IMG/VR virus record: IMGVR_UViG_3300022542_000154
Coordinates: 1-30,593 of that record
DNA: 30,593 nt
Direction: 5' to 3' (one strand)
From: a virus
Within the stretch, counting starts at the first letter, position 1. Each line of letters starts with the position of its first letter. Shown piece by piece: positions 12,371 through 27,046 of the stretch. Under the pieces are notes generated by a model. That model was not told where the DNA came from. It ran no database searches and was given only the letters and a program-made list of their open reading frames with translations. A program made the translations under genes and the position numbers.

Positions 12371-12382
12371 GCTAAGTTATGT

Positions 12383-12458
12383 TATAATGTACTTCTAATC
12401 TTTGAGGGGTTGCTCCCTCATATTCATTGAAGATTAGAAATTAGATTAGGAACTTCAA
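12383..12458 (+). promoter_or_regulatory. Promoter and structured leader of the GIY-YIG gene
   Basis: A plus-strand TATAAT lies at 12383-12388. The leader after it folds into a stem. TTCTAATCTT (12393-12402) pairs perfectly with AAGATTAGAA (12430-12439), and directly inside it TGAGGG (12403-12408) pairs with CCCTCA (12415-12420), leaving a one-sided 9-base bulge. The same left arm, CTAATCT (12395-12401), is also complementary to AGATTAG at 12443-12449, which overlaps the AGGA Shine-Dalgarno at 12448-12451. Two exclusive folds, SD open and SD masked, are therefore possible. Confidence 0.5.
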
Positions 12459-13259
12459 ATGGAAACTACAAACAACATATATTATATTTATAAACATACA
12501 TTTAAAAACAACACTATCTATATTGGAAAAGGTAAAAACAAAAGAGCATTTTCTATGGATAGAAAAAAGAGTCCTTATTGGTGGAATGTGTTTCTAAAGC
12601 ACGGCACTCCAACTGTTGAAATACTTTTAAAGAATCTATCTGAACAAAACGCCTTTATAGAAGAAATTAATATTATTTCAGATTATAAATTAAAAGGTTT
12701 TAAGCTCTGCAATATGACAAACGGTGGGGAAGGACAAAGTGGTGCTATTGTTAGCGATGAAACAAGAAAGAAACTGTCTAATAAACTAAAAGGCGATAAA
12801 CATCCAATGTACGGGAAACATCATTCATTAAAAGTTAGGAAAAAGATGTCTGACGCAAGAGTAGGAAGATTTAAGGGCGAAAACTGTCCTAGTTTCGGTA
12901 AAAAAAGAACTGATGAAAACAAAAAGAAAATATCAAATAGTAGAAAAGGTAAATGTGTTGGTACTGAGCATCATTTGTATGGTAAACACCATAGTGATGA
13001 AACAAAAGAAAGAATATCTAAATCGAAACAAGGTCAAAGACTTGGAATACCAAGAACAAAAGAGACTAAAAGAAAAATAAATATGGCAAATAATATTAAT
13101 AACAAATCTGGGAAAACAGGTGTTTCTTTTGATAAAAGTAGAAATAAGTGGGCTTCTAATATAAAAGTTGATGGAGTATTGTATAGACTTGGTAGATTTG
13201 ATAAAATTGAAGATGCTATTAATGCAAGAATTGACGCAGAAAATAAATATCTTATCTAG
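12459..13259 (+). CDS. GIY-YIG homing endonuclease with NUMOD3 and AP2 domains
   Basis: The 266-residue product starts with a GIY-YIG nuclease domain (YYIYKHT at 8-14, IYIGKGK at 20-26, a catalytic Glu candidate near 69 and LCNMTNGGEGQSG at 83-95). Next come NUMOD3-type DNA-contact repeats at about 97-200, seen as HPMYGKHHS, CPSFGKKRT and HHLYGKHHSDETK. At 215-265 there is an AP2-type DNA-binding domain (SGKTGVSFDKSRNKWAS). This is a free-standing homing endonuclease, which cuts a specific DNA site and spreads by repair. It lies on the opposite strand to its neighbours, between tail terminator and gp10-like genes, has its own promoter and structured leader, and overlaps the converging gene by 8 bases. 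Its C-terminus resembles that of the HNH gene at 26261. Confidence 0.88.
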   Translation: METTNNIYYIYKHTFKNNTIYIGKGKNKRAFSMDRKKSPYWWNVFLKHGTPTVEILLKNLSEQNAFIEEINIISDYKLKGFKLCNMTNGGEGQSGAIVSDETRKKLSNKLKGDKHPMYGKHHSLKVRKKMSDARVGRFKGENCPSFGKKRTDENKKKISNSRKGKCVGTEHHLYGKHHSDETKERISKSKQGQRLGIPRTKETKRKINMANNINNKSGKTGVSFDKSRNKWASNIKVDGVLYRLGRFDKIEDAINARIDAENKYLI

Positions 13260-24784: not shown

Positions 24785-25266
24785 TTCATATCTTCTTTAC
24801 TATTTATTCTTACAAATCGTACTGTGTTGTTTAACTGCTGATTGCTATTCTCTATTACTGTCTTAGGTGCGTGTCTATCTGCTACCTTTAGAGTTATTGC
24901 TAGTTTGTCGTTGGCTTCAACGAGGTGTCTTAAATCTTGTGGCTCTTCTATCTCATCAACCATCTTGCTTAATTTAGCTGATAGTTTTGTAGCGTTATCA
25001 TTTATTAACTTCTTATGTCTTATGCTCTCTTCCGCCACTTCGTCCAATATTAGAACAGTGTGTTCCTTTATTGTTCCCTTTTTTGTCGCAATTAGCTCTT
25101 TTGCTTCGATGTAGTCTACATTTCGTGAGTGTTCCCATAGTTCCCTTTTAGCTCTTTGGGATATAGTGTTTCTTGCTATGCCTGTTTTATCTTTTATCTT
25201 AGATAGTGTATATCCAGCTTCATAGTAGTCTTTGGCTTTTAGCCACTGTTCCTCACTGTATGCCAT
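24781..25266 (-). CDS. terS: Terminase small subunit (TerS)
   Basis: The 161-residue product has an N-terminal helix-turn-helix with LSKIKDKTGIARNTISQRAK at about 21-40, the DNA-recognition part of small terminase subunits. A long helical region for oligomerisation (about 50-145) and a polar tail for contact with TerL follow. It overlaps both neighbours (TAATG with the methyltransferase, ATGA with TerL). It selects phage DNA for packaging. Confidence 0.85.
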   Translation of the reverse strand: MAYSEEQWLKAKDYYEAGYTLSKIKDKTGIARNTISQRAKRELWEHSRNVDYIEAKELIATKKGTIKEHTVLILDEVAEESIRHKKLINDNATKLSAKLSKMVDEIEEPQDLRHLVEANDKLAITLKVADRHAPKTVIENSNQQLNNTVRFVRINSKEDMK

Positions 25267-26261
25267 TAGAATAAACTCCTTTGACTCTGAGGTGCAAACA
25301 GTCCGACTTCGCCTTTTGCGTTTTTAATCCTATCTTCTATTATGTCGCAGTATTTTTTTTCAAGTTCTGAGCCTATCCATTTAAGCCCTAAAATCTCACA
25401 TTGTTCCAACTCAACACCACTGCCACCAAAAGGGATATAAACTACACTATCTTTATTTGTAGATGTCTCTATGAGTGCCTTTGATAGCTTGGGTGGCTTT
25501 TGTGTTGGATGATTGTAAGTACCTGTTATGTGAACTTCTTGAGCAAACATCATCACATCATCTAATTTATTGATATTATTAAAAGGTCTTATTTTATGTG
25601 TATACTCTTCTCGTATATCTTCATATTGCTCTCTTAGCACTTCATAATTTGTTACTATTATCGGCAATTTGTCACAAAGAGTACTCCATTGCTCTTTCGT
25701 TGGAATATTTTCCCCTTTTTCCCAATTAGAAACACATCCAGTCAAACCACCAGTTTTTGATGGGAATAATTTAGATATTTCCTTTACTGATTGTTTATTT
25801 TCAATTCTTGCTTTTTTTAAATAAATTGAAAAAGGATTTCTAACTGCAACATATTCTTTTTCAATTGCTTGTAAATCAGCTCCATTACTATAAAATAAAA
25901 TATGCTCCGTTACGGGTGGATAACTATTAAATCCATCGAAGCCTATTCTAGTTTGACAATCTGTTTTATACCATTTTAAAACATTTTCAAGATTAAAACA
26001 CTTATCAAAGATTATCTGTTTATATGCTATCTTTTTTGCGTGCCCATAAACATATAAACTCCCATTATCTGCTAAAATCCTCTTAAACTCTTTAGCACAA
26101 ACTTCAATCCATTCTAAAAACTCATCAAAATCTTTCCAAATAAAATCAAATTCGCCTTTTACTTCAAAGTATGGAAAATCTGCAATTATTAGATTTATAG
26201 ATTTGTCTTCTATTCTCTTCATTGTTTCTAAGCAGTCTTCGTTAAAGATTTGGTTTATCAT
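25266..26261 (-). CDS. DNA methyltransferase (beta-type order) with inserted HTH-like domain
   Basis: The 331-residue product has the catalytic motif IV as DFPY (28-31) near the N-terminus and the SAM-binding motif I as YIPFGGSGVE at about 275-284. This is the beta-class order used by N6-adenine and N4-cytosine enzymes. DFPY in place of DPPY is unusual but keeps D, P and Y. Residues about 144-200 (FSIYLKKARIENKQSVKEIS, then a VSNWEKGENIP element) look like an XRE-type HTH inserted in the target-recognition region, as I recall in some phage methyltransferases. Methylation may protect phage DNA from host restriction. It lies between the HNH gene and TerS, with TAATG overlaps on both sides. Confidence 0.85.
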   Translation of the reverse strand: MINQIFNEDCLETMKRIEDKSINLIIADFPYFEVKGEFDFIWKDFDEFLEWIEVCAKEFKRILADNGSLYVYGHAKKIAYKQIIFDKCFNLENVLKWYKTDCQTRIGFDGFNSYPPVTEHILFYSNGADLQAIEKEYVAVRNPFSIYLKKARIENKQSVKEISKLFPSKTGGLTGCVSNWEKGENIPTKEQWSTLCDKLPIIVTNYEVLREQYEDIREEYTHKIRPFNNINKLDDVMMFAQEVHITGTYNHPTQKPPKLSKALIETSTNKDSVVYIPFGGSGVELEQCEILGLKWIGSELEKKYCDIIEDRIKNAKGEVGLFAPQSQRSLF

Positions 26262-26767
26262 TACAAAGCTCCTAGAATATTTCCGTGATTTTCATGAAAT
26301 CCGTATTTAATACTAGCTTTTTTTCTTGCTTTAATAGCACATTCTTTATTTGTAAAATTTCCTAGACCTATTCTTTTTCTATTAATCATTATTGATGCTC
26401 TCCATCTATTTCTGTCTTTAATAAAATGGACGCCGATTGTGCCAGACTTATTCCTTTTGCTTAATGGCATATTTCTGTTATTTTCTGCTGTTGTTACCTC
26501 TCTTAAATTACACCAACGATTATCTGTTTTTATATGATTTATATGGTCTATGTATTTTGATGGATAGCTTCCATTCATATATAACCAAGCTAATCTGTGT
26601 GCTAAAATTTGCTTTTTATTAATTGTTATTATTACATAGCCTATTGAATGAGTATATCCTGCTTTATCGCCAACTTTTACGCTTGATATTGATATGTTCC
26701 ATTTGAACATTCCTGTTTCTTGATTGTATGTTAGTATTTCTTTTAAATATTTTTGAGTAAGTTTCAT
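26261..26767 (-). CDS. HNH homing endonuclease with C-terminal AP2 domain
   Basis: The start is the ATG at 26767 (MKLTQKYLKEILTYN), with a strong GGAGGATAATA site; the frame extends upstream to 26818, but this lies against the promoter. The 168-residue product has an HNH_3-type nuclease (AHRLAWLY at 56-63, DHINHIKTDNRWCNLR at 74-89, NNR at 96-98) and an AP2-type DNA-binding domain at 107-156 (GTIGVHFIKDRNRWRASI). It is a free-standing homing endonuclease, encoded in the same operon just before a methyltransferase and terminase. HNH proteins beside terminases can also aid packaging, but the AP2 domain argues for homing. The promoter and a hairpin leader lie directly upstream. Confidence 0.88.
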   Translation of the reverse strand: MKLTQKYLKEILTYNQETGMFKWNISISSVKVGDKAGYTHSIGYVIITINKKQILAHRLAWLYMNGSYPSKYIDHINHIKTDNRWCNLREVTTAENNRNMPLSKRNKSGTIGVHFIKDRNRWRASIMINRKRIGLGNFTNKECAIKARKKASIKYGFHENHGNILGAL

Positions 26768-26774
26768 TATTATC

Positions 26775-26822
26775 CTCCAACGACAATAGCAAGGAGTTGG
26801 AGTCCTTGCGTGAGACATTATA
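26775..26822 (-). promoter_or_regulatory. Promoter and self-complementary leader of the HNH gene
   Basis: A minus-strand TATAAT lies at 26817-26822. The transcript then contains a hairpin: stem GCAAGGA/TCCTTGC (7 bp; 26789-26795 with 26803-26809) and a 7-base loop at 26796-26802. In the mRNA the loop reads CUCCAAC. It is exactly complementary to GUUGGAG at 26775-26781, which includes the Shine-Dalgarno GGAGG. A loop-to-SD pseudoknot would block translation of the endonuclease. Confidence 0.5.
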
Positions 26823-26827
26823 CCATA

Positions 26828-26849
26828 ATAGCCCTAAAAGTAGGGCTAT
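26828..26849 (-). terminator. Hairpin at the end of the upstream gene (weak terminator candidate)
   Basis: A perfect 9-bp stem, ATAGCCCTA (26828-26836) with TAGGGCTAT (26841-26849), has a 4-base loop. It overlaps the stop of the small membrane gene and is followed by the HNH promoter. No U-tract follows on the minus strand, so it may pause or stabilise rather than terminate. Confidence 0.35.
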
Positions 26850-27046
26850 CTCTCAGTCAGTTCTTGAAAAAGCGGAAACAAACTCTCCACCGTATGCTCG
26901 ATTACAGCAACCTTAACACTCGTTTCATACGTTGTGTAGCTTAGCCACATTATAAACGCTGTAATAAGTGCTGAGAGTATTCCTATGACGGTTTTATTCA
27001 CTGACTCTTTCCGTTGTGTTCGTGTCTTTGTTTTCACTTCCAACAT
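26846..27046 (-). CDS. Small membrane protein (66 aa)
   Basis: An N-terminal basic stretch is followed by one membrane segment at about 21-38 (TVIGILSALITAFIMWLS) and a polar, predicted periplasmic C-terminus (VKVAVIEHTVESLFPLF). The frame starts inside the 26994-27131 gene and overlaps it by 53 bases. The Shine-Dalgarno spacing before the ATG is poor. Type II topology with a periplasmic tail is compatible with a spanin-like or holin-like protein, but there is no such context near it. Confidence 0.48.
   Translation of the reverse strand: MLEVKTKTRTQRKESVNKTVIGILSALITAFIMWLSYTTYETSVKVAVIEHTVESLFPLFQELTER

Follow-up and report, generated by a model that had tools for sequence, protein, structure and literature searches.

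The locus described here raises the question whether a phage endonuclease gene can carry, in its own leader, an RNA loop directed against its own Shine-Dalgarno (SD) sequence and, if so, how such a leader would act. The window, i.e., the entire stretch of DNA that was analyzed, comprises 30,593 nt of a viral record (IMG/VR IMGVR_UViG_3300022542_000154). The original prediction, made for the minus-strand transcript, held that a 7-bp stem displays a loop perfectly complementary to seven downstream bases containing the SD, that a TATAAT box precedes this hairpin, and that an H-type pseudoknot thereby masks the ribosome-binding site (RBS) of an HNH-AP2 gene. Stem, loop and complementarity were all confirmed at their coordinates, and the TATAAT box is present as well, in the form of the extended -10 promoter TGGTATAAT (Table 1). 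The HNH assignment also holds, whilst for the AP2 part no Pfam score reached 1e-3. As discussed below, a competing second hairpin (P4) turns the simple mask into a proposed arrangement of two states. This hairpin, the portability of the promoter and leader between non-homologous endonucleases, and the parallel with the int-alpA RNA were all absent from the original prediction.

The leader and its genetic context

The HNH gene is flanked by a 66-aa open reading frame (ORF) and a DNA methyltransferase gene, the start codon of which overlaps the HNH stop codon (TAATG). Because of this overlap, translation of the two genes is possibly coupled. Relatives of the HNH protein in phrog_99 were found in 3,135 phage records, none of them more than 60% identical to it. 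The closest relative of the methyltransferase that was found (L355, 70% identical) is not preceded by an HNH gene, nor by the leader. Thus, the HNH gene and its leader look inserted together, and a comparison of these loci suggests that they arrived together.

An extended -10 box is intact upstream of the leader, and a -35 box is absent from the window sequence upstream of it. The position of the -10 box would place the RNA start at approximately 26811-26809, i.e., at the foot of the first hairpin, P3. An in-frame ATG further upstream, at 26818, was rejected as the start codon of the HNH gene: it is located inside the -10 box and is not accompanied by an SD. Just 5' of the promoter, and outside the segment shared with other phages, positions 26828-26849 form a 9-bp perfect inverted repeat, ATAGCCCTA-CTTT/AAAG-TAGGGCTAT, which may serve the 66-aa ORF as its terminator.

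The leader consists of P3 and P4, with loops L3 and L4, respectively. The complement of L3 sits 21-27 bases downstream, counted from the first base of L3, and is present in the window leader as a single copy; the 3' end of P4 is the base directly 5' of the ATG. When 76 nt were folded with RNAfold, the minimum free energy structure contained both hairpins and had an energy of -14.8 kcal/mol (z = -2.79). The computed energy is -2.4 to -4.8 kcal/mol for P4 and -8.9 kcal/mol for the L3:L4 duplex. Without a pseudoknot, the first four bases of the GGAGG are in the P4 loop of the window leader with a predicted unpaired probability of 0.7-1.0. As the SD core remains mostly unpaired with P4 alone, it is the pairing between the loops that could hide the SD. 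P3 might instead be a 5'-terminal hairpin that shields the mRNA from decay, as it starts at the inferred RNA start, but such a stabilizer requires neither a loop complementary to the SD nor P4, and we regard this explanation as very improbable.

Table 1. Features of the promoter-leader region and the downstream genes in the window.
Feature	Position	Strand	Sequence or description	Basis
Extended -10 promoter	26825-26817	-	TGGTATAAT	sequence
Spacer between -10 promoter and P3 stem		-	GTCTCAC	sequence
Portable promoter + leader segment	26768-26828	-	~61 bases	BLASTN, model R1
Leader	26809-26768	-		sequence
Hairpin P3	26789-26809	-	GCAAGGA(CUCCAAC)UCCUUGC	predicted fold, -8.4 kcal/mol
P3 stem	26809-26803 / 26795-26789	-	GCAAGGA / TCCTTGC, 7 bp	sequence
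Loop L3 (anti-SD)	26796-26802	-	CUCCAAC	perfect 7-nt complement of L4
Hairpin P4	26768-26788	-	UAUUGUC(GUUGGAG)GAUAAUA, 7-bp stem	predicted fold
Loop L4	26775-26781	-	GUUGGAG, complementary to L3	sequence
SD	26778-26774	-	GGAGG	sequence
ATG of HNH gene	26767-26765	-		sequence
HNH_3 endonuclease gene	26261-26767	-	168 aa	PF13392 2.3e-15; phrog_99 4.8e-67
N4/N6 DNA methyltransferase gene	25266-26261	-		PF01555 1.6e-29

Elsewhere in the window, a second homing endonuclease gene, of the NUMOD3 type (12459-13259, plus strand), has an extended -10 sequence, TGTTATAAT, and a leader region (12380-12461, plus strand) in which UUCUAAUCUU complements AAGAUUAGAA, closing a hairpin, and also, over AGAUUAG, complements the SD-holding UUAGAUUAGGA. 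In this leader, too, there is thus an antisense stretch, and its target is present in two copies. On both strands of the window, TGNTATAAT is present in eight copies with 2.86 expected, a number not attained in 100 shuffles, and the extended -10 may be a main promoter type of this phage.

Excess of the loop-to-SD complement over chance

Scanning many genes readily yields anti-SD stretches, and the CUCC within the 7-base complement is expected of any such stretch. The complement could therefore be a chance feature of an ordinary leader. When leaders were shuffled with the SD kept in place, only 15 of 200,000 formed a hairpin (6 bp or more) whose loop contained a 7-nt complement of the SD. Among the other SD-bearing genes in the fetched loci, 0 of 526 attained even a 5-nt loop-to-SD complement; a lone "control" with 7 nt was L081, the window's own copy, and was not counted. 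The second element of the leader, an SD in the loop of a hairpin with a stem of at least 7 bp, was observed in 9 of 772 control genes. The loop-to-SD arrangement exceeds chance. Together with its conservation in two further phage contexts (L357 and L358, see below), which contradicts a fortuitous origin, these counts leave very little credence for that explanation.

The same promoter and leader in other phages

Viral contigs were searched with a pattern that fixed only the ATG, the two loops L3 and L4 and the distance between these, and 15 stretches matched. Three of these (L357, L358 and L360, the last being a copy of L358) begin HNH genes and contain two elements that the pattern did not include, namely a TATAAT box and the GCAAGG/CCUUGC stem of P3. 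The invariance of L3 and L4 in L357 and L358 is, by construction, a consequence of the search, so that the minimal form yields no covariation signal for L3:L4. In L357, the cassette precedes the gene for an HNH_3 protein 42% identical to that of the window, and in L358 that for a PF01844 HNH protein without detectable similarity to it; the latter gene sits between terL (Terminase_3) and a putative terS, so designated by its position and without a Pfam match. In both L357 and L358, the TATAAT box is located 6-8 nt 5' of the GCAAGG.

BLASTN comparison of 300 nt on each side of the ATG aligned the window with L357 over 64 columns (86%, 1.2e-14) and with L358 over 79 columns (80%, 4e-14), the latter alignment extending 18 bases beyond the start of the ATG; no other significant match, upstream or downstream, was found in these intervals. 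A model built from the three sequences, R1, scored 75.8 bits in the window, 77.2 in L358 and 67.4 in L357. Judged from these alignments, the promoter and leader are a portable module common to non-homologous endonucleases. The original prediction had proposed a search for the same design before other phage endonuclease genes, and it is before the HNH genes of L357 and L358 that the cassette was recovered.

The 6-bp core of P3, GCAAGG/CCUUGC, is identical in the three leaders, and this invariant stem consequently does not show covariation; its top A-U pair is A/C in both L357 and L358. In P4, both sides are changed at three pairs, with 94.7% of the cells still paired in the three leaders, and the pairing falls to 36-50% when the partners throughout the entire structure are slid by one or two columns. 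For the P4 covariation, the shuffle control carries little weight with three sequences, 43 of 500 shuffles scoring equally well. It may be argued that GCAAGG-N9-CCTTGC, a perfect repeat that is invariant in three phages and located at approximately +1 to +21 of the promoter, is a DNA operator bound by a phage or host repressor, with the SD complement being secondary. This would leave the 7-nt loop-SD complement, the compensatory changes in P4 and the RNA logic of the int-alpA leaders (see below) unexplained, and an operator appears improbable to us.

The minimal form of the leader is represented by three distinct members only, i.e., those of the window, L357 and L358. No close orthologs sharing the leader were found in a first HNH scan, terminase relatives had no HNH gene at the place that it occupies in the window, as far as the region was covered, the exact hairpin had no match in viral contigs, and blastn gave no meaningful match of the leader in cultured phages. 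Among the 50 viral records behind the loci, R1 matched L357 and L358 alone. In 398 Pseudomonadota genomes, its top score was 27 bits; on inspection, the eight highest-scoring places proved unlike the leader.

int-alpA leaders of related HNH genes

In total, 210 distinct leaders of phrog_99-type HNH genes were gathered. Many phrog_99 relatives lack a leader like that of the window, but four leaders (L008, L009, L019 and L241) contain the Rfam RNA int-alpA (RF02996) above the gathering score, and further ones match it below this score. The int-alpA RNA reportedly stems from a 2017 paper. In a literature search of partial coverage, no paper was found that describes its function or homing endonuclease leaders with a loop-to-SD complement. 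The complementarity of its P3 loop to the SD region is a feature found here and stands outside the Rfam definition.

The complementarity was evaluated in 11 int-alpA leaders of HNH genes selected by motif alone, with the P3 loops set by hand. The mean complement of the P3 loop was 4.91 nt to the SD region of its own leader vs. 3.16 nt to those of the other leaders, and none of 100,000 permutations equaled the observed sum. An earlier permutation test on 18 leaders was set aside as biased, since some of these had been picked for their complement. In nine of the 11 leaders, the loop-to-SD complement is at least 5 nt long (7 nt in the window). In seven of the ten leaders with a scorable SD, the SD is in the loop of a P4 whose stem comprises 6 bp or more, vs. 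26 of 772 control genes. The paired sequences differ between leaders: the loop AACGUAGA pairs with CUACGAGG in L015, AACACAGA with CUGUGAGG in L051, UUGUCUCA with GGAGAC in L241, and UGCGCUCA with GGAGCG in L258. Thus, most relatives led by int-alpA retain the complementarity, with changes on one side compensated on the other. Measured against the refuting condition of the original prediction, i.e., a gene that is kept while the complementarity is lost without compensation, the picture is mixed, given the many phrog_99 relatives without such a leader. Since the leader is conserved before two other HNH genes and int-alpA-type HNH leaders covary, the L3:L4 pairing proposed in the original prediction is very probably real.

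The int-alpA RNA resembles the window leader in that it leads related HNH genes, its P3 loop complements the SD region, and the SD is located in a P4 loop beside the ATG. In contrast to the window leader, it has a three-way junction (P1, P2 and CUAG...CGAAA) and usually a second copy of the target. An assignment of the window leader to int-alpA was rejected: RF02996 has no match in the window, nor in positions 26600-27000 at E ≤ 10, and the three-way junction elements CUAG and CGAAA are absent from the leader sequence. As far as can be judged from these features, the window leader would act like int-alpA leaders, though it is not assignable to their family.

Several further leaders were noted in this survey. 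In L184, L187 and L104, variants resembling the three-way junction have GACA replacing CGAAA, and one of their loops complements the SD region. A recurrent HNH leader without an Rfam match contains a hairpin, mostly followed by CUAACC or CUGACC (L010, L053, L045, L219, L240, L298, L301, L305, L056 and L064); in L219, P4 is UGAUC(GUUGGAG)GAUCA, with a loop identical to that of the window. The viral record of L093 contains an int-alpA match (L322, G015:23340-23407) on the strand opposite to its HNH gene. Among 194 genomes of one bacterial order, 20 contained int-alpA RNAs (L331-L354). All 11 that were read, with the loops picked by eye, have a third loop with a 4-7-nt complement in the tail toward the start of the next gene, and bacterial int-alpA RNAs seem to obey the same loop-to-SD rule.

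A candidate two-state switch

How, then, would the window leader act? We consider it rather probable that the portable promoter-leader cassette is a two-state switch acting in cis that limits translation of the endonuclease. Transcription would start at the foot of P3. In the first state (ON), P3 and P4 would stand side by side, with the SD exposed in the loop of P4. In the second state (OFF), the CUCCAAC of L3 would pair with GUUGGAG, P4 would open, and an H-type pseudoknot would cover the SD. Covering of the SD would result in less translation of the endonuclease and, via the overlapping stop and start codons, possibly of the methyltransferase. The leader is regarded as having two states because P4 and the loop-to-SD helix are mutually exclusive within one molecule, and the simple mask of the original prediction is replaced for this reason. 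The transcription start, the pseudoknot, the repressive effect and any trigger are what we infer from the leader.

The pseudoknot would have stems of 6 bp (S1) and 7 bp (S2) and linkers of 1, 1 and 7-9 nt. Judged from known pseudoknots, it is sterically plausible with P3 open at its top A-U pair. With the A/C combination at this place in L357 and L358, L3 is flanked by a single unpaired base on either side, which is what a pseudoknot of these dimensions requires. Once a pseudoknot penalty is allowed for, the two states may be close in energy.

Kissing of the two loops with both stems intact inside one molecule was rejected on geometry, as there are only 0-2 nt between the hairpins. By the same geometric reasoning, such kissing would be possible between two molecules. 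P3 could then act as an antisense RNA, carried by a leader transcript that is short or has been processed, and bind to the P4 loop of a different transcript, and repression would rise with the copy number of the gene, as in the case of the CI RNA of phage P4 and the C4 RNA of phage P1. The int-alpA HNH leaders, with their loop-to-SD complement and often a second copy of the target, like seqA and seqC of CI, are in agreement with this option, and five T residues within the eight bases 3' of P3 give a terminator-like score. This T-run is weak, however, the window leader offers one target copy only, and the linker lengths suit a pseudoknot in cis well. Overall, we consider pairing in trans rather unlikely for the window leader.

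Comparison with known regulatory leaders

The RBSs of the T-even homing endonuclease genes I-TevI, I-TevII, I-TevIII, segB and mobE are located in a hairpin stem on long early or middle transcripts, and this structure is absent from the late transcripts (PMC2988022). In seg43 of Aeromonas phage 25, a hairpin is located 5' of a free SD (PMC2988022). Like the window gene, the T-even genes combine a promoter of their own with an RNA structure that governs access to the RBS (PMC2988022), but the two designs differ, as the original prediction had anticipated. In the T-even phages, a single hairpin holds the site within its stem, whereas in the window the SD is in the loop of P4, where it would be coverable by a second loop. 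Furthermore, the structure is associated with long transcripts in the T-even phages, whereas that of the window should be on a short transcript from the gene's own putative promoter, since P3 begins at the +1 expected from the -10 box.

The CI RNA of phage P4 (PMC4825925) and the C4 RNA of phages P1 and P7 (PMC8201110) are, like the window leader, encoded in a leader and complementary to sites of their own operon; in phage P1, C4 serves as an antisense RNA for the immunity region to which it belongs. They act in trans, and CI does so after processing, by transcription termination at two targets, seqA and seqC, whereas the window leader has one. C4 was rejected as a relative of int-alpA, as it was not among the Rfam matches of the one int-alpA HNH leader tested. 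The IsrK RNA of Gifsy-1 is similarly a prophage leader RNA in which alternative structures decide on access to an RBS. It activates in trans, however, and the window leader has no Rfam match to IsrK.

Implications

A broader scenario can be envisaged, in which int-alpA is the elaborate and the window leader the minimal form of one mobile promoter-leader module. Free-standing phage endonucleases would then be self-limiting through a loop that is antisense to their own SD, partly in trans, with expression falling as the gene copy number rises, i.e., a C4-like immunity of homing endonucleases. We offer this scenario as a speculation that is more probably wrong than right. For the int-alpA RNA, the observations suggest a job: in HNH leaders and, it seems, in the bacterial copies as well, its third loop complements the SD region of the gene that follows. 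If the switch proposed for the window is real, a two-state leader with loop-to-SD pairing that travels together with its promoter between non-homologous endonucleases would constitute a means of translational control that is portable and different from that of the T-even phages, in which the SD is hidden in a stem.
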